Made by a program: the position numbers and the translations under genes
Source of the DNA: Bolinopsis microptera
Lineage: Eukaryota > Ctenophora > Tentaculata > Lobata > Bolinopsidae
Direction of reading: 5' to 3'
DNA length: 64,000 nt
Assembly: GCF_026151205.1 (NCBI RefSeq)
Contig: NC_087074.1
Location: 3,906,001 to 3,970,000, forward strand
Notes under the pieces: generated by a model
What the model was told of the DNA's origin: nothing
Seen by the model: the letters and a program-made list of their open reading frames with translations, nothing else
Databases searched by the model: none
Shown here: positions 7,523 to 60,729 of the stretch, piece by piece
How positions within the stretch are numbered: position 1 is the stretch's first letter
How the letters are laid out: each line of letters starts with the position of its first letter

Positions 7523-7558
7523 TACTTTGTCAGAGCTCTCGTCTGATAACCGATCCCA

Positions 7559-19443: not shown

Positions 19444-20499
<1,056 letters not shown>

Positions 20500-21240
20500 T
20501 TACACTCTGGGTTTTATGTCATATGCAGCAGCTGCCTCTACTGTCCTTTCTTTTATTTTGCGATCTAACAGCACCTGCATATCTTTACAACCTTGAATAG
20601 TTTGTTTCACCACTTTATCTAAATGGTCATTATGAAGTCTGTTGTCAAGTTGCAATTGAACAATCTGTTCTGATTTAGGCATAACTGCTAACATAAATAG
20701 AGGTCCTCTTGAAGATTCTTCTAGATGATTGATATCTAATAGTGCAGTATCTTGGTAAACTGTTGCAGCACACGCACAAACATAATCCTTCATAGGAATA
20801 CCAGCATTGATTAATGCGAGCGTAGTTGCATTTATTGCAACACAACGCTCACCTCCATCACTCTGCAATACTTGAACAAAAATGTCAATCTGGGACTTAG
20901 GGAATTTTTCTAACAATATAGCTGCTTCAAAAGTGTTTTGAATCATGACACTGACTTCAGTGGACTTCTTATCAGTTACCATCTTCCGCATACGAACACC
21001 AGAACTGAATGTTGCTTTGTTGTAAGAACAAGAGATTATTGCTCGATCGTTAGTCCTTTTAGCACGGTTTTCACATTCTCTTGGACCATACACTGTGACA
21101 AGTACCTTAGTGTATCCTTGTTCGACAATTGCTGAACCATCTGCATCTTGAGCAATGCCAACTTCACATTTCAATTTTCTCATTTCGTGTGGACGCCTGC
21201 CATCACACCGTAATCCCTCAGGTGATAATATTTCTGACAT
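20500..21240 (-). CDS. EXOSC4: Exosome complex subunit RRP41 (EXOSC4)
   Basis: One exon, 246 residues (human EXOSC4 has 245), is an RNase PH-fold protein. Family blocks include LRCDGRRPHEMRKLKCEVG at the N-terminus, VTVYGPRE, the exposed loop with ATFSSGVRMRK, and QVLQSDGGERCVAINATTLAL near residue 130. It is a core-ring subunit of the nuclear and cytoplasmic RNA exosome. In animals the ring is catalytically inactive and guides RNA to DIS3 and EXOSC10. The start is the first ATG and matches the family N-terminus. An inverted-repeat element begins about 360 bp upstream. Confidence 0.95.
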   Translation of the reverse strand: MSEILSPEGLRCDGRRPHEMRKLKCEVGIAQDADGSAIVEQGYTKVLVTVYGPRECENRAKRTNDRAIISCSYNKATFSSGVRMRKMVTDKKSTEVSVMIQNTFEAAILLEKFPKSQIDIFVQVLQSDGGERCVAINATTLALINAGIPMKDYVCACAATVYQDTALLDINHLEESSRGPLFMLAVMPKSEQIVQLQLDNRLHNDHLDKVVKQTIQGCKDMQVLLDRKIKERTVEAAAAYDIKPRV

Positions 21241-28232: not shown

Positions 28233-31200
28233 ATGATAGCAATTTGGATTCTCAGATCACTACTGTGTACCTGCATTGTTTCACAAGAAATAAAGACCTT
28301 CTCAGACACATTGTTGCATTATGATGGTGTTTTAGCCAGCTACTCGCCATTTTATGAAAGATCAGATTATTTTGGATTCTGGCATGTTTCTGAAAACTAT
28401 GGTTCCAAGCTTCGTGATAATCTTAATGGACTTTGTCCTCCTGGATGCATTTGCAACCTTGAAGTTCTAGATTGTTCAGGTCTATCAACAGCTACATCAG
28501 CTATTTCAATTCGCCAGCAGAATTTCTATCTTATACAAAACTCCTCATTTCCTGGAGATAAATACTCTTTGGTAACCGAATTATCAATTGTGTCATGTCC
28601 AAACTTTTTCAAAATTGAAAGTTTTGTATTGGAAAAATTTCCCAATATCAAAACAATCGTAATTGATGGCACTTCTTTGATGACTTTCCCTGCTTTTCAA
28701 ACAGTTTTCAGATCACTGACGAGCATTGACATTTACAGAAGCAAGCTTTCAAGCCTAAGAAAAGCACAATTTAGCTATGCGCCTAATCTTCAGTACTTGA
28801 ACTTAGCTGAGAATGAGATAAAGTTTGTTGCTGATAGCTCATTATCAGGTACATCCCTCCGACTAGCAACCTTTGCAGGAAATGAGCTCTCATTTGTTCC
28901 AAATGCCTTCAAGGTAGTTTCCAGTACATTGGAATACCTTGGTCTTGAAAGTAACAACATATCTGTTGCTAGAGCTGAAGCATTATCAGATCTTTCAGTT
29001 CTTAAACACCTCAATATTAGCAACAATCCTATTGATCACATGGAATTGGGAGTGTTCGGTGGATGCACAGCTTTGAGTTTTATTGAGCTTCATTCGACTA
29101 AACTTACCAGCTTGAATCACTTTAGCTTTTATAACATACCAAGTTTAAATTATGTCAGCCTCTATAGAACACCAACTCTGAGTTCAATATCTGGTAATGC
29201 TTTCACGGATCTTCCAACTCTGTCTATCATTCTGCTACAGTACAGTGGAATACATTTTCTTGACTACAGGATGTTTAACAGTACATCTAAAGTTCAGTAT
29301 CTTGTTCTAGATGACAACAAAATCACAGCTGTACCCCACCTTCTGCTCCAAGAAGTTAAATTGTCTAAGTTGAAATGGCTTGGTTTACGAGACAATAAGA
29401 TTTCTGACATAAATGGTGTTGCAGATGATCAATTCCTTCCTGGAACACAGATTCTTAAAGATCAGTATCAATCTCTGTTTCCTCTTAATAAGAGTGCTGT
29501 TGCATTACCAAAACTTGAAATGCTTGATTTATCTGGAAATCGCCTTATAGAATTACCAGATTACTTTTTCACTGCATTGCCAAGATTGAAAGAACTTTTC
29601 TTGGACAACAATTTTATTAGTGATGACCACATTAAGATAAATGCTTTGACAGAGTCTTGCAAAGCCTTGGAAGTTGTGAGACTGGACAACAACAATTTAA
29701 AAACTGTCCCTAGTTTTTTGTTCCGACCGCCTAACATCAGATATATTTCGTTGAATCAAAACCTACTAACGTTTTTGGAGAGTGGCACATTCTCATCATT
29801 AACCAACCTCACTGAATTATATCTTGCTACTAACAACATTCTAACGATTGAAGATGGGACATTTCCTAGTTCTTTAAATGTGCTTGAACTGCAAGAAAAT
29901 AAATTCAGCTTCCTGGACGAAAATCAGTTCAACGACATGCCTCTGCTGACGCGCCTTGATCTCAGTTCTAACAGAATATCAGATCTGCCCGATGATGTAT
30001 TTGCAAACAATGTCAAGCTTGATTATGTTGATCTCGACAGCAACAGAATTGGCTGGATAAATAAGGCTGTATTCAGGGACACCCCCCTTGAAAGTCAAAT
30101 CACTGTATCAAACAATGAGTTAAAAACTATCGAGCATGGAACATTCTCTGGCAAAGACTTTGTTGTGTTTTCAGCCGATAATAATCAATTGTCCTTCCTA
30201 CCGGACGACTGTATGTTTTGCAATTTAACAGGTTCTGCCGTCAAAATCAGCCTACATCAAAACAGGCTGGAGTTCCTACACTCGTTCATGTTCAGTAATA
30301 TACCGAGTGTTCACAGTATTGATTTATCAGAAAACCTCATCACTGACATAATGGCAAATTCTTTCAACAACATCGGTTTGACGCACACAATTGACCTGTC
30401 AGAAAACCCTGTCAATGAGATAGAAAGATACAGTTTCAACAAGATCTCAGGTAGGGGAGATTATTCGTATCTAGACGTTACCAATATCTCACCCTACAAA
30501 ATTGTTAAATCCTTTACTTTCAATGATGTCTCCGTCCGGAATATAGACCTAGCTTTAAACAATATATCCAAGATTGAGAAAGAGGCGTTTAGCAACGTGA
30601 ATGTTGCTGATACCCTCGCACTATCTGCTGTTCATCTTAAGTTCATCGCAAAACATGCTGCAGTTGGATACATCAAATACATAAATTTGCAAGATAATGA
30701 ACTTACAAGATTGGTACAAGGAGCATTTGAGAAAACAACCTGTCATGACATAGATCTAAGCAACAACAAGATAAGCTTTGTTGACAAGAAATCTCTTCCA
30801 GACTGCACAAACACGATCAAGCTAGATAACAATCTTATTCCCAGATGGATAAAAGACATCATCGTTAGCGGAGAGAATCTCAAAATATTGTCCCTCAAAA
30901 ACAATAAAATAAGGGAAATTGAAGAAGGCGCTTTGTCTGCAGTGAGACATAGCCTAACACTTCTGGATTTAAGTGAGAATGATCTACCGTCCTTTGAGAA
31001 AGATGTGATTTCTAACTTTGCGGCAATTGAAACACTGAATATTGGAAACAACAATATTCGAAATATAGAGGCTCAAACTGGTCTAGTATCCTTGAAGAAT
31101 CTTGATTTTTCTTCCAACAATGGAAGACTAAAATTCTTCAGTAAGAGCATCTTCGAATCCATTGCAGCTGCCAATACAACATCAATCACTGTATCAAACA

Positions 31201-34067
31201 CTTTGGCTAACCCCATTCCTTGCTCTTGCTCAAATTTTGAGGCATTTTCACTTCTCTCTGAAAATTATCGTCTAAACTTCGATAACATAGATTTCTGTGA
31301 ATTTGAGGGACGGACATTTTCATTCAAGAAGGGTCCTGAGGATTACTTTGTATCCTCAATGAAACAGTTATTGTGTGAACCACAAATCTCTCAATTTGAT
31401 CGTGTGACTACTAAATGGGTTGATGACTTACCAACAGAAGAGCGGCTTGATTTGAAATGGAAACTTTGGGAGGTTGCTCTGTGGAATAAAGAACGTGCTT
31501 TTTGTTGCAATGGTGAAACCTCAGACAAATGTCTAACGGTCACCTTATTCAGAGTGAAATGTTACAGAGACGATACTGATGAACTGATTACCGAGGAGAA
31601 CGTCCCACTCAGCGGAGCTGCTGACTGTGATTTCGAGTTCACCACCTCAATAACTACACTTTACACTAACGTATCTATTGCTTGTAGTGTAGATGTTACA
31701 ACCAGTGACAAGAACAGTCCACCGTCCCCATTTGCTGTGTGTCACCCGGAGAATAAAGCCTCTGTGGCAGTGAACTGCCAGAAAAAGGATTTTCCTCTCA
31801 GTGCTACTTTCTTTGATTTTGATAACAATCTCTACGATTTTCAAAACTCTGGTGATGACGATATTGTATCTGGTTTGTCTTTTGTTAATCATCTGTTAGG
31901 ACCTTTTGTATACACAACATCCACTAGTGATTCTGTCTCAAGATGGTTCACTGTGAATAGTGATACTAAAGGCGTGCTCCAACAAGACGTATGTTTAGAC
32001 CGAATTAAGAAGAATCAGTACAAATGGTTTGCTAGAAACTGGTATCCTCTTGATGATCTAGTTTCGACTGGGAATCTTGACAGAGATAAGCATTTCATCG
32101 CTCACAATCTGTACTTTACAGCTCGAATATCTTTCCCCCTCTTAAGAACCAGTAATAATCAGGAGATACGTATTGGTGGACCTGATGATGTTTGGGTCTT
32201 TGTCGGAGGTGTGCAAGTATTGGAACTTTTATCTGAAGTGGATGATGATTCTCCCTTACCCTGCAGCATGGTGGCTATCACTTCTTCTGGTGTCAGTGTC
32301 ACTCTTGGTACGCTAGACTTTGCTAGCTCCACTGAGAGGTGTGTAGCTTCAGATGAGACAAAGAATCATCCTGAAATTATGTTCTTGGCTGGAACCGTTT
32401 ACCCTGTTGATATTTTTCTAACCCAGCGGCGTTCACTATCTTCATCATTGTATCTAGAGCTGAAGAACATAGAACCTAGTGGTTCACCTGCACCACGATT
32501 TCGGTTTGATATGTCAGAAAGTAAACCACCTGGAGGCCTCATTGCAAAGCTGGATTTACTAAACGATCAGGGGATATCAGGTCCGTATACTACTAAGATA
32601 ACACTTGGTAAGGAGTATTTTGTAGTGAAACCTCCAAAGTTCAGTTATCTTGCTGACATGACAGAAGAAGATGCCAATACAAATCCAGGTCACGATATTC
32701 CTGCTTACTATGACTGTTCTAATGAAGTAACAATAGCAGACCCACTTCCTCAGAAAGTAAACTCTTTACTTGGGGAGGATTCGGACGACCTCCTCCTTAT
32801 CTTGAGAGACAGTATGGATTTCGACACGCTTGATCGTAGATCTCGAGAGTTTATTCTTTCATTTTCAGTTTCCATGACCAATTTTCAACTAGAATACAGT
32901 TTTGAGACGACAGTACTCGTCACATTATTGGACTCAAACGACAATTGTCCGGTTTTTATGGACAGTTCTGATGCTCCTATGCTTTACGAGTCGCTGTATG
33001 CTTTATCAATAGAAGGAAAAAGTATCACCGCAACAGATGCCGATAGCTCTGAAAATAAAGTGATAAGTTACCATGTTGGTGAAATGAAACGTCCTATTAA
33101 CGAGAGTTTCTACACGTCTCAAATAGACTACTATCTCCACGAGAAAGTGTTTGTTGACTACACGGTTACAATACACGCTGTAGATAACGGTGATAAGAAG
33201 TACGGCTCCTCCACCGAGATACTCATCTCACTCAGCACCAGCTGTATCAGAGACCTCCAGCTCGTGATCAACAAAACCACAGGTCTATTCCTGACCCTAG
33301 CTCCAGGCTGGATGATATCTGGGTACAACAGTTCGTATTGTGAGTCCTGTACTGTTGGGTACAGATGTCCGGGTGATGGTGTCCGGATTAGGTGTACTAC
33401 TTGTGAACGAGAGTATGAGAACACTGACTACACCTGGCCCGAGGGAGTATCTAGATCAGAACCAGGATGTGATAACCCCAGCAAGGCTGAGTTTAGTTTT
33501 GGTGGGTCTGCTGAATGCCAGGATTGTAAAGCAGGTTGGGTGTGTCAGGAAGGGAGGGGTAGCCCGGTGCTCGAAGACATGAAGTATGTGGATATGTGCA
33601 CAAATGGAAGCTGTAATACCACAATAATGGACTGTGAACCTGGTTTCTCATGTATAGCTGGGGTTGCTGAACTCTGCCAAGTTGGGACTTATAATGACGG
33701 CACCTTCTCCAGATGCCGACTCTGTCCTCCTGGTATGTTTACTGACTCCACAGGCTCCTCTGCATGCTCCTGCTGCCCCGAGGGCTCCGAGTCAAGTCAC
33801 GGTAAGGACAAGTGTAAGATGTGTGTTTGGAACGAGATGTGGACAGAATGTGGGGAGTGTAGACCTTGTCTGGACAGTGAGGAATGTCGTTGTGTAGGTT
33901 CAGAGCATGGCTGTTATCAAGGCCAGCAGTGTGTCAACTTACCTGGGGATAGTAACGTGTGTTTGGACTGTCCTGCGGGTTCTGAGCCGCTTCAGAGCTC
34001 TTGTTCAGATGTGGATGAGTGTGGGAGATATGACCCCTGTTTTCAGGGGGTAACTTGTATCAACCTG
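28233..34067 (+). other. Exon 1: signal peptide, LRRs, fibro-slime, cadherin-like, Cys-rich
   Basis: One exon of 5,835 nt codes for 1,945 residues. Residues 1-18 are a signal peptide. A Cys cap (LCPPGCICN, about residue 66) opens a very long LRR region of about thirty or more repeats, closed near residue 995 by IPCSCSNF. After a Cys-containing linker, residues about 1183-1413 match the fibro-slime/PA14-like fold ([44 protein letters not shown]). Cadherin-type calcium motifs follow ([29 protein letters not shown]; about 1420-1665). Then comes a Cys-rich stretch with a GCC2/GCC3-like [18 protein letters not shown], ending in the first EGF ([11 protein letters not shown]). The donor is GTGAGT at 34068. 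Confidence 0.85.
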
Positions 34068-37000
34068 GTGAGTTGGATCATCAAGTTTTAAAATTGATTG
34101 CTCTTTATCTGAAATCAAAGAGAAAACGTTGCCGATTGAATAAGTCGAATTCGAGGAATTGATGCATATAATATACTATATATTACCCTTTTAGCTGACA
34201 CTGTTAAACTTATTTTGGTTTATACAGCAAAAGTGACAGCTCTCTAAAACGGTTTCAGTCTCCAGGGTTCAAGTGTGACCCCTGTCCCTCCGGCTATTCG
34301 GGAACCAGCCCTCAGGGTATTGGACGCACAGAGTCTCAGGAGTGTTATGATGTGAACGAGTGCGAGCTGAACAATGGTGGATGTGATCCTAACTCACTCT
34401 GCATCAACATACCCGGATCTGTTACGTTAGTTATATTTGACATTTCTGCAGAACTGCTTCCATTTTAAACAGGATAAATAGTTTGTCACTATCTAACTAT
34501 ATAGTCTGCCATGATTTGCTAGCAACAGAAAGCAAGAGCATCCGCAAGCATTTAAGCTATGATCAATTTAAGATCCGGTTCCCTAAAAGCGTTTGATAGA
34601 GCCGGATACAGCTAAGACTGATAAATTGAGCAGGGAAACAACAACAATTTAAATACCACGCTCTCCTAACCATCGTGTGGGGTCCAAGGTACCTGATAGT
34701 TTTCACTAACTTTCTGACAAACATCCTGCAGATGTGGCCTCTGTGCTCCAGGTCTAATTGGTTCCGGAGAGACTACATGCTCCAATGGGAACCTCTGTCA
34801 CCTGGGTAAACACCGCTGTGACGATAATGCCATCTGTATTCACACAGGTAACAATTTATAGAATTAATAGAGATTTTGTCCGTGGAAATTCAAACTTAAA
34901 TTGACCAGTGTCAACATTTTAATATCAACCCACATCCAGAAAATTTTCAATTTCCTCCCAGTCCAATGTCTCCTTCCTAAAAATTATCTTGTGTCCTAAA
35001 AAAGGCAAGGTTATCTAAAAATTTCCTCCCAGCCAGACTTCCAGACTGACATGTTTTCAGATCAATACCGTGATCATAATACACCAACAAATTCGGATAG
35101 TTAACTGTGTTTGACTAAGATTACTAACTGTTAATCTCAGGACCAGGGTGCTACAGATGTCAGTGTGAGCCACAGTTTGCTGGAGACGGTTATACCTGCG
35201 GTCTGGACTCTGATCTTGATGGATACCCGGACACACCCCTGAACTGTAACGAAACTGTCTGTGCGCAGGACAACTGTCCCCTGGTTCCTAATCCTAGTCA
35301 GGTTAAATACCGCACAAATATCAAACAAAGTCTGTGCTCAATTTTATAGTGAACATTATACTTAATGACTCTTGTGGACTATAGCAATGATATTTAATCT
35401 GTTACGTGTATCTGTAAACATATGAAATGGACTAAATAGAGAGATTCTATATAAATGAGGTCTACAGGAGTCAGGAGAATTAAGATGGAATTCATATAGG
35501 AACACCAAAGTTGCACAGGGCAAATTAGGTAGCCTCGAATAACAAATATCATAAATTGGTTAGCTTTGCTCAGCACAAAAAACTATTTGCTGGATCCTAG
35601 AATTGTCCCGTGGAAGACAAGGTTGGATTTTATCGTTGCCCTCAAAATATCTAATCTGTTTAACAATTTACTCAAAGGAGACGTCTTGTTAAATTGAAAT
35701 AACATATTTACATTATATCAACTGTTTATCTTGTTAAGTAAATAATTTTAAATAGATGCAATAATTGTTTCAACCGATCCCTACAATAAGCAGAAACAAT
35801 TATTACAAATTCACTTAATTTAAGTTTTATTAAATTTAAGCTTTATTTTGTACCTATTTTGGAGCAAGATGAGGATCCCGTTGAGAACGTTATCTGTCCA
35901 TCTTGACACGTTGCCTTCACGTTACGATCTTTCTTGGCGTGTTTTCGTGGACAGCGGTAGGTTACTTCTTCTCCGTGTCAGCTGGTAACTGAGAAACTGT
36001 AACGTCCAACAGGGTGTCGGGGACTTGCAGTTGGCTGAAATAAAGACTTTCAAATCGTGAAGAATAAATTCAAAATAGCCACTGATGGTTAACATAATAT
36101 GTTATAGCGTTTGCACAATTAACACACCAACTATATATCTTACCACGGCAATGTGGCGCAAGTGCACCATTAGGTATAACAATCCCTCCGTCAACACAAG
36201 CTGCCTTGTCTCCTCCCATGTTGGTGAAGTCTGCATCACAGTTAAGGGTTATCTCAGCTCCGTGCATCACTGGTAGTTCTGGTTCCGTCACAACGTTGCT
36301 CCAAGTTGAGTCGAGGGACTCACATTTAGGTTTGTCAACTGAAATTATAATCAGTTTCAAAAAAAATTTTTAATTTTTAAGTTATTGGTTTATTCAGCTT
36401 AATTATAGCCTGTTGAACTTAATCGAACAATGATCTGTGGGAGATTTTAGCAAATATAAAAAACAGCACAGTTAAAACACAGCTGATTAGAATTGTATTA
36501 CTTACTACATTCACTTTTCTGACTGTTGCTGACTGTTCCAGCTTCACATTCAGAACATGTTGCAGATCCAGCAGCACTGAATTTTCCAGCTTCACATTCA
36601 GAACATTTTGCAGATCCACCAGAACTAAATTTTCCAGCTTCACATTCAGAACATGTTGCAGATCCAGCAGCACTGAATTTTCCAGCTTCACATTCATAAC
36701 ATGATGCAGATCCAGCAGAACTGAATTTTCCAGCTTCACATTCAGAACATTTTGCAGATCCAGCAGCACTGAATTTTCCAGCTTCACATTCAGAACATGT
36801 TGCAGATCCAGCAGCACTGAATTCCCCTTCTTTACATTTAGAACATGATGCAGATCCAGCAGAACTGAATTTTCCAGCTTCACATTCAGAACATGATTCA
36901 GATCCAGCAAAACTGAATTTTCCAGCTTCACATTCAGAACATGTTGCAGATCCAGCAGAACTGAATTTTCCTGCTTCACATTCAGGACATGTTGCAGATC

Positions 37001-40000
37001 CAGCAGCACTGAATTTTCCAGCTTCACATTCAGAACATGTTGCAGATCCAGCAGAACTGAATGTTCCAGCTTCACATTTAGAACATGTTGCAGATCCAGC
37101 AGAACTGAATTTTCCAGCTTCACATTTAGAACATGTTGCAGATCCAGCAGAACTGAATGTTCCAGCTTCACATTCAGAACATGTTGCAGATCCAGCAGAA
37201 CTGAATTTTCCAGCTTCACATTCAGAACATGTTGCAGATCCAGCAGCACTGACTGTTCCTGCTTCACATTCAGAACATGTTGCAGATCCAGCAGAACTGA
37301 ATTTTCCAGCTTCACATTCAGAACATGTTGCAGATCCAGCAGCACTGAATTTTCCAGCTTCACATTCAGAACATGTTGCAGATCCAGCAGCACTGAATTC
37401 CCCTGCTTCACATTCAGAACATGTTGCAGATCCAGCAGCCCTGAATTCCCCTGCTTCACATTCAGAACATGTTGCAGATCCAGCAGAACTGAATTTTCCA
37501 GCTTCACATTCAGAACATGTTGCAGATCCAGCAGCACTGAATTTTCCAGCTTCACATTCAGAACATGTTGCAGATCCAGCAGCACTGAATTCCCCTGCTT
37601 CACATTCAGAACATGATGCAGATCCAGTAGAACTGAATTTTCCAGCTTCACATTCAGAACATGTTGCAGATCCAGCAGAACAACCTGAAAAGAAAATATT
37701 TATCCAGTGTTTTGCGTTACTGCCTTGCACGAATGTTATTATTTCCTACCATTTGATTATTTTTATATCCTAGCTATTTCTGGAGCAACTTCAAACTTCT
37801 TCCCATGTTATTGGTTCCTCTTAATTTAACTTTCACTCCAATTTTAAGTGATAATACGACTATACGAGGTGAATGCCGTTGCAACTTCCTGGTTAAACCC
37901 AGGATTTCCTGTTTAACTTGACCTAATAACTTATTTATGTTATAAGTAACATTTAAAACGGTTTGATCTCATCTAAACAATTCACCTTGGTTACCGATTA
38001 TAACGATCTCCGCCACCCACATCCTAGTACGGCTGTTCACTACCTCCAGCTTTACGGTGTTTCCATACATGCAGTCAGATCTTTGAGAAAGGCTGTCAGA
38101 CGATGCTCCCTCAGTGAAGACTGTGAGTGATAAATCGCTACATGTGCCTTCATTCCGAACAACACAAGTGCTACAATCTGTTGAAGAGCAGATCCAAGTT
38201 TGTGCTGAAACCCTTCCATTGTATCTCACCACTTGGTTAATACACTTTACTTGATCAAGGGTTAACTTTAACCAGATATTATTATCAGCATCCTTGGTTG
38301 CTTTGGCGGAGGTCTCCATGTCTAGGTCTATAGCAAGTTCAGCACCATAATCTACAGTGCGGGAGGATTGTTTAGCACTGACTGGTATTATCTCACCATC
38401 TTCTCTCTGTCGAGTCTCACCCTTATCTTTAGTGCCGGATTGTTCAGCACTGACTGGTGTTATCTTACCATCTTCTTTCTTACCACAATGAGAGAGCGAG
38501 ATAAAGAGAAGAACCAACAAATGAAACATTGACTTTGTCATTGTGTCTGATAGGAAATGATTTAAGTATTTATCAGGCACCACTCCGTTAAAACTATTTT
38601 GAATTATGGAAATAACAGCTATTCCTTTTTAATTCTCATTAAAATTCAAAGAAACATAAAAAGAACTTAGAGCTCACAAGCTAAGGGCTGATTCTATCTA
38701 GATCTTTCCAAAACTGGCTTTTAAAAAACAGCATCGAAATGGGACTGGCTGTCTTTAAGTTGACAGTATGGAGCTTAAAATGTTGGAAAAGCTTTCGCTT
38801 GTGTAACTTTTATACAATAGCAATGTGCTTGCGTAAAGTGGCTTACGGAGTGGCTTACGGAGTGACTTACAGAGTTGCTTACGGAGTGGTGAGTGGGTCT
38901 AAAATGGCCAAAGTGTGGCCAAGTAACATACATGTGCTCGATCCCTTAAACAATAAAGAATACACAAGCAGTTTGATTTTTCTTGGAGAAGTTATCTTTT
39001 GACTCTTAAGGTTGCAAACAAAATGAAGAAGCAGACTTTAGGCTTCAGTTCACGTAAACTTTATGACGTGAATCAAATGTGAAATATTCAAGAACTGTGC
39101 AGCTACAATAATAACTTAAGCTAAATATTCCGTTAGCTACAACATCTTAGAATTTTTGTATAACCTGAATAACGTCCAAGGCACTAGGGAACCTGGTGTA
39201 ATAAAAAACCTTATCGAAAAGAGCCAGGCAAGTCGAACAGAGGGAGAGGAAGAAACAAGAGATTTGGTGTGCACTGTGCAATTGTTAGCGTCCCCTAGTT
39301 CAGATAATGATCCCTGTCATTGTTCCAGCAGGGAATAAGGAGAATTGTGGAGTATCCTTGTGACTCACAAACGTTAGCTAGCTACAGCATCTTGGATTAT
39401 TCTCCAAGTAACGTATAGGGCACTAGGGAACATTGTGTGATAGAGAGAATCTTATTATAGAAAAGAACCAGGCAAGTCGAACAATGGGAGAGAAAGAAAC
39501 GCGGGATTTGGTGTGCAATTCTTAGCGTCCCCTAGTCGCAGATCATGATCATTTTAATCGTTTGAGAGAGATTATGTGGACAATAGCGGACAACCCTGGT
39601 AAACTTTAAGGCACAAAATCCTTGATTCGCACATTACTGAGAGGGACAGATAGAGGGAGAGATATGTGCATGAAATAGAGTAAGAGGGCAGTTTTCACAT
39701 TAAAGGACTCACTGCTGGGATGTTGTTCAGGGTAGCCGGGTAAAGTGGCCACTGCCCACTTTAGAAGGTAGATACTTTACAGGCACACTACACAGTGGCC
39801 CTGTTTTAGGGTCCCAGTGTGAGCCTTTATGTTCCGTCAGAAGACGATCAAATAAGGGATTAGGGTGGCGGGGGAAGCAGCAGGCTTGTTGAGTCGCCGT
39901 ACATTCGCCGGGTGCCCAGGTCGGATAGTGTTTAATTGAAGTAAGGCTACTATATTGTAGAGAGTTCTTACAACTAGAACTCGCTCGATATGATATTAGG

Positions 40001-49000: not shown

Positions 49001-52000
49001 TCCCGCCTGTTAACCAGAAGAACCAATAGATCTGTTATATACCGGTAGTGGTTGGAAGTTAATCAAAATTTGTTTTGATACGTGACAGTAATTTTGCGTT
49101 TTGATTGGTCGATCCCCTAAGATGATTGGTTAATTACTGTCTCGTGGTCAATGCTGGAAGCTGATTGGTTAATATCAGAAAATATATGGTTCACCTCCTG
49201 CAGTTCGCGGTAACCACATCTACTTGACAGTATTCGAAAATGCCGTAAAAGAGCAATTTCTCGTGCTATCTGTTTTTATAAGTTGTGTCACTACCAACTT
49301 CATATCATCATCATACATCACCAACTTCATATCATCATCATACTGTGTTTCCAGTTACTTCACCCTGCTATTTATCCCCTATTTAGCATTCAGTACAGAT
49401 TCCACCATTTTAGTGAAGGAACCAATCGGAGATAACACGATTATTACGAAACTGTGCTGATCACGTGACATTTTATCTGGTCACGTGCTCAGTTCATATA
49501 CTCAGCACCAGGGTACAATGAGTAAGAATTGTAAACAATATGGGTTATATTCTGTATTCATCATTAAATGAGGGTATATACTTATATAGGAAATTAGAAT
49601 TTCAACTTGTTCTAGAATAGCCACCCTACCAGTAGCCACACACTATATCTAATATCTATAGACTATTCGAAAATGCCTTACAGAAAGTGTTTCTCTCGCG
49701 GGGTGATCTATAAGTTTTGTTAATGTGCACTACGGTCTACGATTGCTAATAAATAGACGGCAGATTGTGCGAGATGGTTGTGCGAGATGGGTCACAATTG
49801 ACGTTGTTGGACGTCAATGGACTGGAAACTTAAAGACCACAATTATTAAATGCAACTAAAGCTGTTACTCAACACTTCTGCTTTGTTTCATTAACTATTT
49901 GACTGATTAAAGTTAATATACGATACCTCTTACAGTTCTGCCGGACATTCATGGTTGCAGCACATCTTATAACACATGGGAAACCATATCAGTTGTAAAT
50001 GGCCCATATCAGTTGTAAATGGCCCATATCAGTTGTAAATGGCCCATATCAGTTGTAAATGGCCCATGTCAGTTGTAAATGGCCCATGTCAGTTGTAAAT
50101 GGCCCATGTCAGTTGTAAATGGCCCATGTCAGTTGTAAATGGCCCATATCAGTTGTAAATGGCCCATATCAGTTGTAAATGGCCCATATCAGTTGTAAAT
50201 GGCCCATATCAGTTGTAAATGGCCCATATCAGTTGTAAATGGCCCATGTCAGTTGTAAATGGCCCATATCAGTTGTAAATGGCCCATATCAGTTGTAAAT
50301 GGCCCATATCAGTTGTAAATGGCCCATATCAGTTGTAAATGGCCCATATCAGTTGTAAATGGCCCATATCAGTTGTAAATGGCCCATGTCAGTTGTAAAT
50401 GGCCCATATCAGTTGTAAATGGCTCATATCAGTTGTAAATGGCCCATATCAGTTGTAAATGGCCCATATCAGTTGTAAATGGCCCATATCAGTTTGTAAA
50501 TGGCCCATATCAGTTGTAAATGGCTCGTGTCAGTTGTAAATGGCCCATATCAGTTGTAAATGGCCCATATCAGTTGTAAATTGCCCATATCAGTTGTAAA
50601 TGGCCCATATCAGTTTGTAAATGGCCCATATCAGTTGTAAATGGCTCGTGTCAGTTGTAAATGGCCCATATCAGTTGTAAATGGCCCATATCAGTTGTAA
50701 ATGGCCCATATCAGTTGTAAATGGCCCATATCAGTTTGTAAATGGCGCATATCAGTTGTAAATGGCTCGTGTCAGTTGTAAATGGCCCATATCAGTTTGT
50801 AAATGGCCCATATCAGTTGTAAATGGCCCATATCAGTTGTAAATGGCCAACTTCATTGTTTGTTGGCCACAAACCCAACAATTAACCACCACACACTATT
50901 TAGAGATAACTTTTCGGTCAGAGGTAGAAGTCGAACAAAAGGTACCGTTTCTGTAGTTTTTAAGTGTGCCCAGTATTTTCTCTTTCTGCTATAATATGTA
51001 TTGTATTTTAGTCTTAGTCAATTATGGTAGTTTAGTCTTAGTCAATTTATAGTATAGTTTAGTCTTAGTCTATTTTCAGATTTTAGTCTCGGAATATTCC
51101 AGTAGGTATTGGTCCGTGAGCCCATCGGGACAGTTTATTAATTCCATTTTAGTTCGCACATTTACACATGTTTTATCTTTCCTTATCTATAGTTTACACT
51201 TTACGGGCTCTGCTTATTCAAGAAACCGGCCCTTAACTTCCCGCCGTTCTGAGTATCTCACTGCTGGTCGCGTGACCTCGGACACGTTATACGTGATCCC
51301 ACGTGACCAGTAGCGCGGTAACATGGGTTGCTAGCCTTTAGCTACAACTCCCTGATCCCTTTTCTTAGCTTAGACCGTCCCGGAGCACGCCTTTTTCTAC
51401 TTAACTTCAAAATCAAATGCAACAATAATGCTCAGGATTTTTGTGAAATAAGAAAACAATTCCAAATAAGGACGATAACTAATTGAACCTGCCGTCCCTC
51501 TCTTAGAGGATACTTCAATATTTGTCACATGTCACATGGGTCGATGTTATGACAAATAACTTCATATTGTAAATTCTAAAAGTTTTTGTATGAACTATGA
51601 TGTTTATTTGAAGTTGTCAAGAGGAAATGTGACATATTTGAGATTAAGCCTACAAAAGCCATTATAATCATAATATTCCATTGACACTTCATAGTTCAAG
51701 ATACCACGCTATCGTCCAACATTATAAAGTTATAAAGACAATCCTTTAAATTAATATAATATCAAGGAAGATTCTATAATGACTTGAAGTAAGTAAAAGT
51801 TATGCTTGAAATTTTAAATAGCTTTCTGTCAATAAAATATTCAACTTAGTGACGCATTCGGTTGAAGTAAACCGTTTACAGCTTGGAGCGCTGCTGATGT
51901 CTGGCCACGTTTATTTATTTATGTTTCCTTTTTACTAACAGTTCAAATATTGACGGAACTCCGTTATAATTTGGAGATGAGATTCTGAGATTTAATTTTT

Positions 52001-55000: not shown

Positions 55001-58000
55001 CGTGATACTGGGAACGATTATTCTGCTTCTGTTGCTCGTTGTATCTATTGTTGCTCCAATTCTTTTCATGCACATATCTGCCTAGTAACGGTAAGTTATT
55101 ATTGCTTTATTGGTATTATTTGTTTTTAAAGATGAAATTGACTTTGAGATTTGAAGGCATATTTAGAAATGCTGTAATTTTGATACAATTAATAGAACTT
55201 ATATTTTAATTTACAGTGGAGCCAATATAATTCATAAACTCATAAATACGTCACTATAATTAAGTTTAAGCTGTTGGTGCTCAATATGAACAAAATGTTG
55301 CTCTGCGCTCCAATACCTGGAAGACTATTATAGAGCACATAACGCACACTCTGCCGAACGCGATCAAATACACGCTGTTCATTCTATAAATACAAGCTGT
55401 TCATTCTATAAATACAAGCTGTTCATTCTATAAATACAAGCTGTTCATTCTATAAATACAAGCTGTTCATTCTATAAATACAAGCTGTTCATTCTATAAA
55501 TACAAGCTGTTCATTCTATAAATACAAGCTGTTCATTCTATAAATACAAGCTGTTCATTCTATAAATACAAGCTGTTCATTCTATAAATACAAGCTGTTC
55601 ATTCTATAAATACAAACTGTTCATTCTATAAATACAAGCTGTTCATTCTATAAATACAAACTGTTCATTCTATAAATACAAGCTGTTCATTCTATAAATA
55701 CAAGCTGTTCATTCTATAAATACAAGCTGTTCATTCTATAAATACAAGCTGTTCATTCTATAAATACAAGCTGTTCATTCTATAAATACAAGCTGTTCAT
55801 TCTATAAATACAAGCTGTTCATTCTATGAATACAAGCTGTTCATTCTATAAATACAAGCTGTTCATTCTATAAATACAAGCTGTTCATTCTATAAATACA
55901 AGCTGTTCATTCTATAAATACAAGCTGTTCATTCTATAAATACAAGCTGTTCATTCTATAAATACAAGCTGTTCATTCTATAAATACAAGCTGTTCATTC
56001 TATAAATACAAGCTGTTCATTCTATAAATACAAGCTGTTCATTCTATAAATACAAGCTGTTCATTCTATAAATACAAGCTGTTCATTCTATAAATACAAG
56101 CTGTTCATTCTATAAATACAAGCTGTTCATTCTATAAATACGCAAGTTGGTAGACAAGTTATATCTCCCAAAAGTCTGACTTTATCAACCATTTTGTGAC
56201 TTTCTTGGGATTAGTAATATCGGTCAACTTATATCATGACGTATACGATAAGCTGCTCTAAAACTGGACTTCTCTTGATATACAATTTTGACTTTCACTT
56301 CCATATATCTAACAACTGTAACCACTGGATTAGTTTTAACATATTTAATCAACAATGATCAAGAGTGGTCAAGAACCATTAAAATGAAGATCTACATAAT
56401 ATGTAGGTAATTTCTTGGCATCCTTTTTGGATCAACCCGTCATGAGCCCTTCCTGTGGATTAGCGTACCTAAATTCCTTTCTATCTCCCAGATTTGAAGA
56501 CGTGGATTACAAGGGAACGTTCTACATCCCCTACTCGACAGAAGAGAGCGGCTACATTGGACTGGTGCTGAGTTACCAGGATCCGGGTAACATGTACTTA
56601 TTAGTTTGGAGACAGGGGTATAAGACATGGTTACATGGGGACTGTGGTCAGGACTGCTCTCATCACCACGCTCATGGGGGGACTACTGGTTAGTACTGGG
56701 GGGGGGGGCTAATAATGGTTAGTACTTGGGGGACTTCTGGTTAGTATAAGACATGGTTACATGGGGACTGTGGTCAGGACTGTTCTCATCACCACGCTCA
56801 TGGGGGGACTACTGGTTAGTACTGGGGGGGGGGGGGGGGGTTACTGGTTATTATTGGGAGGGGGGCTAATAATGGTGAGTAATGGGGGGGGGGGGGGGGC
56901 TACTGGTTATTATTGGGAGGGGGGGGGGGGGGGCTACTGGTTATTATTGGAAGGGGGGACTACTGATTATTATTGGGAGGGGGGGGGGGGGACTACTGGT
57001 TAGTAATGGGAGGGGGGGGGTTACTGGTTATTATTGGGAGGGGGAACTACTGATTATTATTGGGGGGGGGGGGCGGGGGGCTACTGGTTAGTACTGGGGG
57101 GAGGGGACTACTGGTTAGTACTGGGAGGACTACTGGTTAGTACTGGGGGGAGGGGACTACTAGTTAGTACTGGGGGGGCGGGGGACTACTGGGTAATTTT
57201 ATTATTCTGGTACGTCAGATAAAGATATTATGTGTATTTTAATGTGTGATGAGATCTCTAATTTATATTCATTTGAAGCAGTTGATTAGAAACTGCCTTT
57301 AATCCTGGCTATACATTATAGGGAAGTATCTTAGAGGATAAAAGAAATGAGTACAAGTTACTGCATGATTAATAACGATCAGAGAGCGAAATAACTGAGC
57401 TTAAATAATAAATAGCCACCAAAGATAGCGCGTGACCAGGCAATAAACTAATACATAAAGGCTTGCAGTTACCAAACGATACTAACTAGTTCTTCTTTGG
57501 TGGCCGGAACATCAGAGTAAAGGCAGCACCTAAGAACGATGAAAGCAGGAATAAATATCAAAAAATGGCTAGTTACAAAAATTATTCTCCTTATGAGGTA
57601 GGGTACCTTGACAGGTTGAACCTGTGAAATCCCAACCGGCAAGATCGTTGATTTGGCTCCATTAATCATTACATCGTCCAACTGCATATCTTGGCAACTG
57701 TCAGTGGCGATTATCAGTGAGATGAAATAATGGGTTCCTGGTTCCAGACAAACATCAGAGTTTCCTTCTATTCCTAATTAGTACTTCTACTAAATAACTT
57801 TTAGCGTTGTTTCGGGCGATCATCGAGAAAATGGGTCTACAGCCATCATTTAATGTAACGCGCGATAGGCAAAATCTTGTTTTCGACAGGCTAGCGCGTG
57901 AAAATGCTGCCATATCATGCCAGTCAACAGAAATACGCGACGCAATGCCAAATATGTTTCAGACTTTACCAACTGCAGTAATTTTTGAAGTGGATTCAAT

Positions 58001-60729
58001 TCCCATTTCAAAACTCTGTATCTAAACTAAAAGTGCTATGGAGCCAGTCATTCAAACCGGATGCAAAAGTGTAATGGTTAATTATTGGAATTGTAGGAAC
58101 ATATTGTAGGATAGATATTATGTTCAATTCATACTGGATCAAGGAACTCCTTTTTCGCCACTGAGTGACCAATGGACAACACGAATTGTTCACTGAATTA
58201 TAGGCCCTCTTAGAGAGACCGTTTGAGAACCGTCTTCAAATAAGATCTCTGGGTTCTTAGTCAGGAACTGTATCGACGTATTATGATTTATTGGATATCT
58301 GAACATTACTGCTCGACCTGTATCATAACTGGTATTGTAGCAATCTGCTGAACAATTTATTGATGAGCTATACTTGAGTCTTGAGGGGCTTCCCCAGAAA
58401 TATTATGATGACCCGACAATAAATAAGCGTATACAAAGTTCGTTCATATTCAGCACTATGTTCCGTCAAGGGTTTATTAATTGCTCCGTGGCGTTTCTTC
58501 TTTAAAAACCACACCGGTCCCAGATGATCAAAATGTCATGATCCCCATTTCAGGATTGCAAGTACGGCGTGTTCATATCTCTATAACAGATAAGGACACT
58601 ATAGATAGCGGACTGTGGCTGAGCAGTGACAGTGATGTTTCTACGTTGCTATGGCAGGATCCCAACCACATTTCCTGGGGTCCGGGAACTTCTTACAGGT
58701 ATAATCTCTGTTATAGTTAGTTTTATTCATTTTTACGTGATTCTGTAATATAATAGTGATTGCTACCCTCCGAATCATTGAGAATATCCGGTTCTCTTAT
58801 GTTATGGTTTTTCAATAAATTTCATAGAATTGTATTCTAGATAAAGTTCCTGAAGCTTCACTTTAACTAGCAGTACAAATTATCAGGTGGATTGTATCAC
58901 ACCGACCCTCAATTGGATCTATTGAAGTACGGGTTTACACTGCTTCGGAGGGTTTGATTGTTAACTCAGGAACGATATTCGATTTAAAATTGCTTGGTGG
59001 GAAAATAGGAGTCTACAACTTCCACCAGTCACGGGCTACTTGGTAATTGTTGATCAGTAGTTGATAGTCTTTTCAGTAATAAATGTCATAAAGATGAAAA
59101 ACATGAGTTAATTAAGAAATAAAACAAACGAAGTATTTCCCAAACCTCAGATTTCCCATCTCAGTATCGTAAGTCCATTAAATTGTAATACTGAACATCT
59201 CCCTCAAACAGGACCAACATTGCTGTAAAGTGCGCTGAACCGGAGAGTTACGGCATCTCTCTATCTAATAGTCACGTGACTCTCACCTCACTACAACAAC
59301 TCAACCTCACCAACAACTTTATTATTAGTGCCTGGGTCAAGACAGCTGTTAAAGGGGTTGTCCAGCCTGTTTTATGCACCTCTGATACTGGAGTGTGAGT
59401 ATTGTGGGTTACAATCGCGTACACATTTTACGAGAATGTTCATTATTTGTAACAGTATAAAATACTCTGCAATGTTAGGATCTCTAATACGATTTTCTGA
59501 TGCGTGACCCGCCATGATAGTCTTAACTACATTAATTACATGACGATTTACAGATTTACAATGTGAAACAATATTTTCCTCAGATGCTTGTTTCTTGACG
59601 AGGATTTAAAGATTGTGGCCACACACGGTCAGACTACAGTGAAACAAGAGACACCCCTAAGTATAGGAGTTTGGAATCTTGTTGCTATGAAAGTGGATTT
59701 ACAAGAAGGCACTATCACTGTCTTTAGGTACGTGGTTGTTTAGAGAACGCTGAATGGATCAGTTTTATACATTTAAAGAGCTGTTAGATCCGTATCAGTA
59801 AGTCAGTAGCGACTTTAATTATAATGAGTAACCCAGAGTTGCATAATATACTACTGCGACAGATAATCATGCTGGTAGTGCCAGTCCCCAGAGTTATAAC
59901 TTTAAAATGCGTCATGTTACCCAAAATATTGTCTAGGGACAGATCTGAATCATCCGTTCAGCTACAAGAGAACGATCAGCCGGTGAATACCTCACACGTA
60001 TTGTACCTGGGAACAGATACGAGAAACAATTTTACAGGTTCATAGAGGGTGGTACCCTTGTCAAATCTACAAATTGCTTTGTTCGGTAATCGAACTTTAA
60101 CAAATTGAAGGAGGGAAATTAACAGGTGTAAATTCATCTCCGACAAATCTTTGATGCTTCAAATTCTTACTTGCATTACGTCAGGGAAAATGACGGACGT
60201 AAGGGTGATTTCAAGATTGTTAACAACAGACATGATCTCTGTTTTAACGAGTCCTAGTCTTGCAAGGGAGAGGAAAATGGGTATTGTGTCACTTCATCTG
60301 ACGTTTAGGGGCCGAGAAATTCAAGATCCTGATAGCTCAATCCAGGTTAGAACACTCAAGAAATAGGAAACACCTCCATTCAACTTAAACTCGATATTAC
60401 GCTTCTTCCAATTTTACTTTTACTCGTCCTTAATGAGATGAAATAAAATTCAAAGAAACATTTGCTAATTTTTAATGCTAGAGTCTTAAACATTTTAATT
60501 TATCTGTCAGGTAGAAGCCAGCAGTCCCTCGCCAGAAGTCGTGCCAGTGTTAATTACGGGTTATTTGCATCGGGTCAGAGAAAACAAGTCTCAACTTAAC
60601 AGAAGAAAAAGAAATGTTTCTGGTTTTAAGAAAAGAAGGCTGGCGATTACTGATATTCAGATGTTTGGAAGTCAGAGGCGGAAACGGGATAGAACTCTGA
60701 GGAGATTCGGTAGTAGGGAGGAGCTGTAA
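28233..60729 (+). CDS. Giant secreted LRR / fibro-slime / cadherin / thrombospondin fusion protein
   Basis: I join 17 exons: 28233-34067, 34259-34425, 34732-34847, 35141-35301, 40092-40314, 40534-40672, 40884-41022, 42126-42244, 42422-42517, 56492-56688, 58554-58698, 58887-59042, 59212-59394, 59584-59727, 59892-60037, 60185-60345, 60511-60729. All have GT/AG borders, all phases agree, and the frame stays open for 8,346 nt (2,781 residues). Domain order: signal peptide, LRR region, fibro-slime/PA14-like, cadherin-like, Cys-rich GCC2/GCC3-like, EGF, thrombospondin type 3 repeats, thrombospondin C-terminal domain, LamG-like domain, basic tail. There is no membrane segment, so it is probably extracellular matrix or secreted. 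The TSP3 and cadherin motifs bind calcium. Large non-canonical thrombospondins are known in invertebrates, but I do not know this domain order. Introns 4 and 9 are large and hold other features. Confidence 0.85.
34426..34731. other. Intron 2
   Basis: About 306 bp, GTTAGT donor and CAG acceptor. Nothing else seen. Confidence 0.6.
34848..35140. repeat. Intron 3 with a fragment of the 6.4-kb repeat family
   Basis: CCCACATCCAGAAAATTTTC followed by AATTTCCTCCCAG near 34929 matches the inverse of about 6388-6420. A second TTTCCTCCCAG occurs near 35020. Confidence 0.5.
35302..35853. other. Start of intron 4, nothing recognised
   Basis: Lies between exon 4 of the giant gene and the last exon I can see of the opposite-strand nested gene. 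It could hold that gene's 3' end, but no convincing exon is visible. Confidence 0.4.
35854..38541 (-). CDS. Nested secreted protein: discoidin-like domain, 24 Cys repeats, sushi
   Basis: Exons on the - strand are 37995-38541, 36506-37684, 36144-36338 and 35854-36034, all joining in phase 1, entirely within intron 4 of the giant + strand gene. The start at 38541 ([19 protein letters not shown]) gives a clear signal peptide; an upstream in-frame ATG at 38583 does not. Exon 1 encodes a galactose-binding/F5-8C-like domain ([32 protein letters not shown]). Exon 2 encodes 24 tandem 16-residue units of the type [16 protein letters not shown], the GCC2/GCC3 (ephrin-receptor-like) pattern. Exon 3 is a sushi domain ([23 protein letters not shown]). 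Exon 4 contains sushi-like [12 protein letters not shown] and [11 protein letters not shown], but its frames do not join: two single-base shifts are needed, so the 3' end is broken or misassembled. Expected to be extracellular; function unknown. Confidence 0.75.
36530..37684. repeat. Coding minisatellite, 48 bp x 24
   Basis: Each 48-bp unit encodes one 16-residue Cys repeat of the nested gene. As 48 is divisible by 3, another frame on the same strand also stays open for 410 codons ([15 protein letters not shown] type). That frame is an artefact: only the Cys frame joins a signal-peptide exon and a sushi exon. Confidence 0.9.
38542..40091. other. End of intron 4 with minor repeats
   Basis: Holds the promoter side of the nested gene. 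A 15-bp repeat (about GTGGCTTACGGA x 4) lies at 38839-38890. A diverged duplication of about 130 bp (39170-39310 and 39410-39545) shares GGCACTAGGGAAC, CAGGCAAGTCGAACA and TTAGCGTCCCCTAGT. No exon of either gene seen. Confidence 0.5.
41023..42125. other. Intron 7 of the giant gene
   Basis: About 1.1 kb with a short (AT)n tract near 42008-42023; otherwise nothing seen. Confidence 0.6.
42841..43188. repeat. 66-bp tandem repeat, left part (about 5 copies)
   Basis: The unit starts AGTCATCTGTAAAGCAACAG and ends in GACAAAGCGAGACATG. As 66 is a multiple of 3, frames on both strands stay open; they are artefacts. The array is interrupted by the foldback element and resumes at 44969. Confidence 0.9.
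43192..44968. mobile_element. 1.78-kb foldback DNA element with arms of about 0.85 kb
   Basis: Left end TAGGGCCTGTCGTGATATCA and right end (its inverse) pair, and the two halves are almost identical inverted copies meeting at a loop of about 20 bp near 44037-44056. It is inserted in the 66-bp array. AAAGCAAC is present at 43181-43188 and again at 44969-44976, consistent with an 8-bp target duplication of hAT type, with three extra bases (TGA) at the left junction. A 67-codon frame occurs in both arms (43209-43412 -, 44748-44951 +), reading outward; it has no known domain. No transposase, so non-autonomous. High arm identity suggests recent insertion. Confidence 0.85.
44969..45160. repeat. 66-bp tandem repeat, right part (about 3 copies)
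   Basis: Continuation of the array split by the foldback element, ending in ACATGAGTCGTG. Confidence 0.9.
46096..46164. repeat. 22-bp tandem repeat, about 3 copies
   Basis: TGATACCACTTTTTTGGCCA type units, the third degenerate. Confidence 0.7.
46640..46735. repeat. Degenerate GGTTAGGG-type patch
   Basis: GGTTAGGGTTGTGGTTAGC and further GGTTATGGTTAG units, followed by AAGTCACGTGAT. A complementary-type patch with an AAGTCACGTGAT neighbour occurs at 7028-7145. Confidence 0.4.
47036..47124. repeat. 22-23-bp tandem repeat x 4
   Basis: TTCAGACCTCTGGTTCGGTA units; copies alternate between GGTTCGG and GGTTGGG. Confidence 0.85.
49295..49345. repeat. Short tandem duplication
   Basis: ACCAACTTCATATCATCATC is present twice in succession. 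Confidence 0.75.
49983..50850. repeat. 20-bp minisatellite, about 43 copies
   Basis: The unit is GGCCCATATCAGTTGTAAAT, with GTGTC and GGCTC variants. In the last third, 21-bp variants (CAGTTTGTAAAT) recur every 121 bp (near 50491, 50612, 50733), forming a higher-order repeat. Confidence 0.95.
51005..51075. repeat. TTTAGTCTTAGTC repeat, about 3 copies
   Basis: TTTAGTCTTAGTCAATT-type units with irregular spacing. Confidence 0.6.
52190..52325. repeat. CCTTAAGT-rich patch
   Basis: About eight CCTTAAG/ACTTAAG boxes occur within 135 bp at irregular spacing. Confidence 0.6.
53285..53385. repeat. Tandem duplication of about 52 bp
   Basis: CTCGACCCTCAGAGCTTTAC with a following TTATAACGTGATC is present twice, with a partial third start. 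Confidence 0.75.
54384..54502. repeat. 20-bp minisatellite x 6, with CACGTG E-boxes
   Basis: CAGCACGTGTCCTGCAAAAA is repeated six times. Five copies contain the palindromic E-box CACGTG; one has GTACGTG. The array lies about 450 bp upstream of the micropeptide candidate. Apparent open frames across it are artefacts. Confidence 0.9.
54954..55085 (+). CDS. Candidate 43-residue single-pass membrane micropeptide
   Basis: An ATG-to-TAG frame of 44 codons encodes a short polar, acidic start ([15 protein letters not shown]) and one strongly hydrophobic segment ([19 protein letters not shown]) with a short C-terminus ending HISA. A good GTAAGT donor follows directly after the stop (TAACG|GTAAGT, near 55091), so the frame would fill the coding part of one exon with a spliced 3' UTR; a CAG acceptor lies near 55216. 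The layout, small polar N-terminus plus one helix, is that of small SERCA-regulating or other single-pass micropeptides, but no sequence family is recognised. It sits inside intron 9 of the giant gene on the same strand. It may be a chance frame, or an alternative exon. Confidence 0.4.
   Translation: MLSSDADENMNRYSRIVILGTIILLLLLVVSIVAPILFMHISA
55372..56142. repeat. 22-bp minisatellite, about 35 copies
   Basis: AAGCTGTTCATTCTATAAAT followed by AC, with very few variants (two AAACTG units, one TATGAA unit), so it is recently expanded. It ends about 350 bp before exon 10 of the giant gene. Confidence 0.95.
56615..56820 (+). repeat. Duplicated 3' end of exon 10, including the splice donor
   Basis: From TATAAGACATGGTTACATGG to ACTACTGGTTAGTACT, the last 70 or so bases of exon 10 and its donor (GTTAGT at 56689) recur at about 56744-56820 with one change (TGC to TGT) and a second donor at 56815. 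Confidence 0.85.
56689..57190. repeat. G-rich minisatellite of splice-donor-like units
   Basis: Units of the type GACTACTGGTTAGTACTGGG, or with TTATTATTGGGAGG, alternate with runs of 8-18 G. Many units repeat CTACTG|GTTAGT, the exact exon 10 border. The + strand is almost purely G-rich and could form G-quadruplexes. Open frames through it are artefacts. Confidence 0.85.
57191..58553. other. Rest of intron 10 with two coding-like fragments
   Basis: On the - strand (about 57616-57768) a frame reads [20 protein letters not shown] and [15 protein letters not shown] before a GTACCC. This looks like part of an extracellular beta-domain but has no partner exon. On the + strand 57831-58025 a frame starts [19 protein letters not shown] and ends ISKLCI. 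Neither fits the giant gene, whose exons 10 and 11 join in phase without them. Confidence 0.35.
60511..60729 (+). other. Exon 17: basic C-terminal tail with two RRKR sites
   Basis: The last 72 residues are rich in Arg and Lys and include NRRKRNVSG and [12 protein letters not shown]. Each contains RRKR, a furin-type cleavage motif, so the tail may be cut off in the secretory pathway or bind polyanions. TAA ends at 60729. An AATAAA overlaps the stop (60729-60734), implying a very short 3' UTR. Confidence 0.7.

Follow-up and report, generated by a model that had tools for sequence, protein, structure and literature searches.

A predicted complete mega-thrombospondin gene in the ctenophore Bolinopsis microptera, with a PA14/fibro-slime-like module and a KDEL-like C-terminal tail

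The locus considered here lies in a window of 64,000 nucleotides of Bolinopsis microptera genomic DNA (the whole stretch analysed; contig NC_087074.1, positions 3,906,001 to 3,970,000, forward strand) and raises two questions: whether the leucine-rich repeat (LRR), cadherin-like and thrombospondin (TSP) modules encoded there belong to a single gene, and, if they do, whether their combination is a novelty or belongs to a known family. The spliced model built from the genomic DNA is a single gene on the + strand, 28,233-60,729, whose 17 coding exons encode 2,766 residues. Every intron is bounded by GT...AG, the phases are consistent, and no internal stop occurs between the start at 28,233 and the stop codon at 60,727-60,729. 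The first-pass annotation had proposed 17 exons in frame with a start and a stop, which the splice model and a tblastn comparison with the Mnemiopsis leidyi protein P0004 confirm; its length of 2,781 residues has to be corrected, as the model gives 15 fewer.

Exon 1 (28,233-34,067) alone comprises 5,835 bases (1,945 codons) and ends at the donor GTGAGT. Delimited by its open frame, its homologs P0001-P0008 and this donor, it encodes the start, a hydrophobic leader, the LRRs, FN3-like, PA14/fibro-slime-like and cadherin-like domains, a Cys-rich region and the first EGFs. The remaining exons follow from the splice model and the tblastn of P0004, which matches all 17 exons and by which those at 42,422-42,517, 60,185-60,345 and 60,511-60,729 were placed. 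EGFs continue in exons 2 (34,259-34,425) and 3 (34,732-34,847), and exon 4 (35,141-35,301) encodes the last EGF and the first type 3 repeat. Further type 3 repeats are encoded by exon 5 (40,092-40,314; TSP_3, E = 3.7e-13), exon 6 (40,534-40,672), with VGD at the KGD-equivalent site, and exon 7 (40,884-41,022), with VGD at the RGD-equivalent site. The last of these repeats and the start of the L-lectin share exon 8 (42,126-42,244), and the first L-lectin strands are in exon 9 (42,422-42,517). The L-lectin then extends through exons 10 (56,492-56,688), where ESG stands in place of the canonical DDD, 11 (58,554-58,698) and 12 (58,887-59,042). Exon 13 (59,212-59,394) encodes the last TSP_C residues and the start of a second ConA/LamG domain (Laminin_G_3, E = 1.5e-9 for the domain alone), which continues, with Pfam support, in exons 14 (59,584-59,727) and 15 (59,937-60,037) and ends in exon 16 (60,185-60,345). 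Exon 17 (60,511-60,729) encodes a basic tail (19 K/R and 7 D/E in 72 residues, RRKR twice) and the stop.

P0004, the hypothetical protein ACHWQZ_G005126 (2,545 residues), is an annotated chain whose N-terminal part is absent from the annotation. Its alignment starts at 28,917; support for the 228 codons before this point comes instead from P0001-P0003 and P0005-P0007, and the final 22 codons of exon 17 fall beyond its tblastn match. Over 2,532 aligned residues it is 68.3% identical to the spliced window protein (exon 1 alone, 69.4%; exons 2-17, 66.0%), and the 16 junctions are gapless in the protein alignment, bar one residue beside the last. Since P0004 is a single chain across all 16 junctions, the window holds one ctenophore gene with its halves joined. 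The first-pass annotation had allowed for two separate genes with a promoter between 34.1 and 40 kb; in the form considered here, a gene for the LRR, fibro-slime and cadherin parts (exon 1) would have as its neighbour a thrombospondin gene of its own, starting near 40 kb. Such an arrangement would suit the single huge exon 1, the 4.8-kb intron after exon 4 (35,302-40,091), which holds an opposite-strand gene candidate, and the relatives' predicted open frames, which finish at or shortly past the exon 1 donor. However, exons 2-4, located upstream of that intron, already run through the EGFs into the first type 3 repeat, the NPSQ/MDID join is in phase and falls within a repeat, and the exon 4-5 join is spanned by Mnemiopsis P0004. 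With the single-chain Mnemiopsis annotation and the identical order in mega-thrombospondins (mega-TSPs) of other phyla, the two-gene arrangement becomes very improbable.

When residues 1000-1945 of exon 1 served as the query, the matches were three cadherin-type proteins and P0001-P0008, whose identities in the exon 1 alignment are 92, 76, 70, 69, 52, 50, 46 and 30%, respectively. P0001-P0003 and P0005-P0007 are predictions of 1,893-1,967 residues over the exon 1 stretch that stop at or near the donor, and in five of the six V directly follows NL, as a read-through GT donor would yield. Termination where exon 1 ends, which had also been considered, is disfavoured by these frames and by the splicing of P0004 at this position. 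The giant first exon looks conserved, because the predictions of all six relatives cover the same stretch and end near the donor. A tree built from the PA14-cadherin part, which took in 18 of the 32 full-length mega-TSPs defined below, places the window beside P0001 (100/99), and a set of five rows (99/97) contains the window, P0001 and Mnemiopsis. From the identities, this tree and P0004, we infer that P0001-P0003 and P0005-P0008 are ctenophore sequences. P0008 (1,675 residues), the divergent 30% relative, has LRR, PA14-like and cadherin parts, lies on a long branch of the tree and may be a second ctenophore paralog. Judged from the sequence, this single gene is a real, intact and complete ctenophore mega-TSP gene.

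The introns and flanks of this gene contain further features. The opposite-strand candidate in intron 4 (36,498-38,628, -) has a leader-like exon (37,969-38,628), with no Pfam match and discoidin-like on visual inspection, and a further exon in which a 48-bp unit recurs about 24 times, the encoded repeats matching Ephrin_rec_like (E = 2.3e-34). In intron 9, two arrays of one 66-bp unit (42,841-43,188 and 44,969-45,160) each have a 22-bp tandem-repeat unit beside them (at 43,423 and 44,696); the 22-bp units look mutually reverse-complementary, and the whole is possibly a mobile element. Two minisatellites follow in the same intron, at 49,984-50,848 (20-bp unit, 43 copies) and 55,366-56,141 (22-bp unit, 35 copies, 99% match). 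The 3' end of exon 10 and its donor are duplicated in tandem within the next intron (56,620-56,816), where a 24-residue stretch is thus encoded twice; a G-rich minisatellite (56,802-57,192) adjoins the duplication, and an open frame on the - strand of intron 10 (57,469-57,777) has no Pfam match. Elsewhere in the window, three long single-exon frames at 4,113-11,076 (+) resemble seven-transmembrane receptors, a weak 7tm_1 match (E = 0.0022) being found for the third only, and Pfam identifies at 12,882-21,240 a CAP gene (+) and HIT, GrpE, family 2 glycosyltransferase and RNase PH family genes (all -).

Along the protein the modules are arranged as LRRs, FN3-like, fibro-slime/PA14-like, cadherin-like, Cys-rich, EGFs, TSP type 3 repeats, L-lectin, second ConA/LamG and basic tail, all encoded on the + strand. 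A probable signal peptide occupies about residues 1-21 (28,233-28,295): the top Kyte-Doolittle window of the chain starts at residue 2, and the N-terminus is likewise hydrophobic in P0001-P0003 and P0005-P0007. It is followed by an LRR solenoid with a C-terminal cap, with approximate limits at residues 90-1000 (28,500-31,232), for which Pfam LRR_8 gives E = 7.2e-85 over 13 stretches with the whole exon 1 and E = 2.9e-89 over 15 stretches with the N-terminal part alone (residues 1-1030). An FN3-like domain (residues 1047-1176; 31,371-31,760), which the first-pass annotation had not listed, separates the LRRs from the fibro-slime domain. The PA14/fibro-slime-like, lectin-like domain (residues 1181-1425; 31,773-32,507), defined by HMM and predicted fold, precedes tandem cadherin-like repeats (about residues 1426-1670; 32,508-33,242) with the motifs DSNDNCPVF and TDADS. 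For these repeats the Pfam Cadherin match to the window is below cut-off (E = 0.11), and in a Foldseek search the predicted fold matches protocadherin-19 EC3-6 (E = 8.6e-7). Within the Cys-rich region, an Ephrin-receptor-like motif (PF07699; residues 1818-1853; 33,684-33,791) scores E = 3.3e-5 and 24.0 bits against a cut-off of 23.1 when the segment is scanned, and 19.3 bits, under the cut-off, in the whole exon. The Pfam scan of the thrombospondin part, with a query from which exon 9 and the two final exons were absent, gave TSP_C at E = 3.5e-39, TSP_3 at 1.7e-35, EGF_3 at 8.2e-12 and Laminin_G_3 at 3.9e-8; these four families and LRR_8 exceed the Pfam curated cut-offs. Sequence matches in the PDB are TSP-2, COMP and TSP-1, and no coiled-coil family is among the Pfam matches of the chain. 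A canonical thrombospondin would have a single terminal L-lectin with the DDD calcium site, whereas here a second ConA domain follows and, in an alignment with 1ux6, the site reads ESG. The original proposal that LRR, fibro-slime, cadherin, EGF, thrombospondin and LamG modules are united in one secreted chain is borne out.

This combination is not new. Mega-TSPs were described in 2019 (Shoemark et al., PMC6526912), with members listed for ctenophores, calcareous sponges, a placozoan, cnidarians and many bilaterians, and the text of that paper gives them as the sole form of the thrombospondin superfamily recorded in ctenophores. The window protein fits their definition, with tandem LRRs over some 1,000 N-terminal residues, the canonical C-terminal region of thrombospondins (EGF, type 3 repeats, L-lectin), an L-lectin without the DDD calcium motif, a second ConA/MAM-like domain after the L-lectin, and 2,766 residues where the typical length is > 2,700. 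It is therefore a mega-TSP, a member of a known family already recorded in ctenophores (PMC6526912), and the earlier statement that no thrombospondin of this order was known is wrong; apart from the name fibro-slime, the order is the published mega-TSP architecture, as far as the text of that paper describes it. The related idea of a lineage-specific fusion, confined to this animal or to ctenophores, could appeal to discoidin (PF00754), which is common in bilaterian members and absent from P0004, ctenophores lacking it. However, the order of LRR, PA14-like, cadherin-like and Cys-rich parts recurs in 32/32 full-length mega-TSPs, all of which have TSP_C among their precomputed Pfam domains, and the weakest match of the cadherin HMM among them is i-E = 6.8e-4 (P0120). 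Unless the annotations of those proteins are artefacts, a fusion of such restricted distribution is accordingly extremely improbable, and the search for the same order in other animals, suggested with the original observation, tells against uniqueness.

These 32 chains are the rows with both TSP_C and LRR; some are paralogs or closely related (three chains from Patiria, four from Mytilus, two each from Owenia and Antedon), and they do not represent 32 independent lineages. P0017, P0018, P0024, P0140, P0145, P0146, P0148 and P0149, having no LRR or TSP_C, were excluded. An HMM built from ctenophore sequences only finds the PA14-like module at the same place in 32/32, with domain i-E values from 4.5e-22 to 7.3e-9, while the best E among 300 controls (200 shuffles and 100 other proteins) was 0.0083; on P0017, P0018 and P0024, which have no LRR, it gave a fragment (E = 9e-4), a stray match (E = 0.8) and nothing. 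The earlier fibro-slime call proved right: Fibro_Slime TIGR02148 reaches E = 2.6e-5 and 24.6 bits on the segment (E = 8.1e-4 on the whole exon) and matches 10/11 proteins tested. Because the score lies under the curated cut-off of 45 bits, which the best relatives also do not attain (42.2 bits), the module is named fibro-slime-like. Pfam PA14 matches 1/15 members, at E = 0.053, under its curated cut-off. The predicted fold is confident and is the beta-sandwich of PA14 domains, like the Flo/Epa/RTX PA14 lectins; speaking against a PA14-like assignment, the two best VIA rows for the module are an anti-sigma-factor protein.

A PA14-like structural spacer that binds no sugar, with ligands bound through the LRRs and the C-terminal end, is a possible reading, if a somewhat doubtful one. 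It is consistent with the variability of the acid pair at the position matched by eye to the DcisD motif of PA14 lectins (PMC8092209), which lies within GGPDDVWVF in the window module and is DD in only 16/41 proteins (DE in 10, EE in 9, ED in 1, no match in 5), with the lack of any sequence match between PDB chains, known lectins included, and the module profile up to E = 10, and with low Foldseek TM-scores (about 0.3-0.47). On the other hand, the DD pair is retained in 8/9 ctenophore-group sequences, and the ten best Foldseek matches are all Flo/Epa lectin domains. In the open-licence literature, where mega-TSPs were found in one paper, none was found that treats fibro-slime together with thrombospondin, and the main text of PMC6526912 (its figures and supplements aside) contains "PA14" once and "fibro-slime" not at all. 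A PA14-like module common to mega-TSPs thus looks unreported.

The second feature of interest is the end of the chain. The last RRKR site and 13 further residues, the final four of them REEL, are encoded at 60,676-60,726, and the Mnemiopsis P0004 tail has RRKR, then eight residues, the last four of which are REEL. Among 34 chains (the 32 full-length mega-TSPs, the window and P0004, related rows not being independent), 15 end in [HR]xEL, and all 15 have R-x-[KR]-R among their final 60 residues, with 7-14 residues between the most C-terminal of these sites and the chain end. The endings are HSEL (5), HTEL (3), HEEL (3), REEL (2), HAEL (1) and HQEL (1); the tailed chains are the window, Mnemiopsis, 10/11 echinoderm chains, Branchiostoma, P0143 and P0144, so that the tail is shared across ctenophores and deuterostomes, groups far apart. 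The sea star proteins P0017 and P0018, outside the 34, likewise have a basic site followed by the endings HGEL and HTEL. The tail is found in 0/16 named lophotrochozoan chains; with P0126, P0142 and the sea cucumber P0129, whose chain terminates inside a domain, 19/34 are without it, and it is therefore not essential to the family.

Known ER-retrieval ends are of the KDEL type, with HxEL in carboxylesterases, and the polybasic site of the tail is of the furin type. The natural reading is consequently that the tail is a removable retention tag. Nearly as probable as its opposite, in our estimation, is the reading that [HR]xEL is no retrieval signal and marks a processed propeptide end or a heparin-binding tail, its last residues being kept for another reason. 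Most of the 15 tails are indeed HSEL, HTEL, HAEL or HQEL rather than KDEL or HDEL, the strict KDEL-type retrieval pattern [KRHQSA][DENQ]EL fits only 6/34 chains (the REEL of the window among them), and lophotrochozoans manage without any tail. Against this, the frequency of the tail greatly exceeds that of [HR]xEL at internal positions of the 34 chains (33/95,432) and its occurrence at the ends of 132 control proteins (0/132; mostly bacterial or cadherins, not matched as secreted animal proteins), with the caveat that the final EL and the H/R at the fourth-last position are invariant among the 15 by the selection itself. All 15 also bear the basic site, and the proteins of the family enter the secretory pathway, which recognises KDEL-like ends. 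If the tail is a retention tag, its removal raises a further point: furin acts in the Golgi, later than the ER, so release of the mega-TSP would depend on leakage past retrieval. Mega-TSP was not the subject, by title or start of abstract, of any open-licence paper on the module or tail among the matches listed. In the main text of PMC6526912 (figures and supplements aside), the terminal sequence is called nonconserved and the terms "KDEL" and "endoplasmic reticulum" are absent. A polybasic-[HR]xEL tail common to ctenophores, echinoderms and amphioxus looks unreported.

It is proposed that the chain is monomeric on entering the secretory pathway, because no oligomerising coiled coil was found among Pfam families. 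Calcium would stiffen the cadherin, EGF and type 3 stretches into a rod, the LRR solenoid and the PA14-like module would bind protein or glycan ligands at the cell surface or in the matrix, and the thrombospondin end with the second ConA domain would grip the other side, forming a bridge of cells and matrix. The KDEL-like tail would probably make the protein slow to leave the ER, up to the removal of the tail by a furin-type convertase. The DDD site through which canonical thrombospondins are retained in the matrix is absent here, which implies that this protein binds matrix in another way (PMC6526912). The product may therefore be described as a secreted bridging matrix protein, possibly retained in the cell until a convertase cleaves off the tag. 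Functional evidence on mega-TSPs consists of expression work and of regeneration experiments in Hydra, where silencing is reported to block head regeneration (PMC6526912).

Taken as a whole, the reading of the locus as an intact ctenophore mega-TSP gene, encoding a chain with a KDEL-like tail that is proposed to act as a secreted bridging protein, is very probable. Much more tentative is the broader idea that mega-TSPs carry an ancient PA14/flocculin-type lectin-like module at a fixed place, together with a natural secretion switch, equally ancient, that is present in ctenophores, echinoderms and amphioxus and was lost by lophotrochozoans. If it is true, a giant matrix adhesin is made, held in the cell and released once a convertase cuts the tag. 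The complete ctenophore gene model, the common lectin-like module and the common C-terminal tag each open a direct test. They further indicate that this extracellular protein of many parts was for the most part put together before the ctenophore lineage diverged from the remaining animals, a point of relevance to how animal matrix arose.

Among known systems, the closest are the published mega-TSPs of Mnemiopsis (MlMT, 2,323 aa), Hydra (HmMT, 2,827 aa) and Nematostella (NvMT, 2,804 aa), with which the window protein shares the long LRR region, the central cadherin, the C-terminal region of thrombospondins, the second ConA-like domain, the size and the lack of DDD; with NvMT it also shares VGD at the RGD-equivalent site, whereas at the KGD-equivalent site it has VGD and not IGD (PMC6526912). 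The text of that paper describes the central region in ctenophores as a single cadherin domain and assigns PA14 to Hydra only; the window adds to this description FN3-like and PA14/fibro-slime-like domains and the common polybasic-REEL end. Its Mnemiopsis ortholog ACHWQZ_G005126, annotated as a hypothetical protein, has the same domains and the RRKR...REEL end. Canonical thrombospondins and COMP (PDB 1yo8, 3fby, 1ux6) are alike in their EGFs, type 3 repeats and L-lectin, but have no LRR, PA14-like or cadherin parts and no second ConA domain; they mostly bear a coiled coil, and their DDD site is highly conserved (PMC6526912). The PA14 lectins (yeast Flo1/Flo5, Epa adhesins and the RTX-adhesin PA14 domains 6m8m and 6x8a) have the overall beta-sandwich predicted in the window, where the DD pair, matched by eye, resembles their DcisD motif (PMC8092209); the window module differs in having no significant sequence match to them, and its sugar binding is only putative. 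Finally, in the engineered lumER switch (PMC8904541) a protease site ahead of a C-terminal KDEL governs whether the protein is let out of the ER, as proposed for the tail described here; that switch is man-made and its potyviral protease works in the ER, whereas the cut proposed for mega-TSPs would be made by furin in the Golgi.
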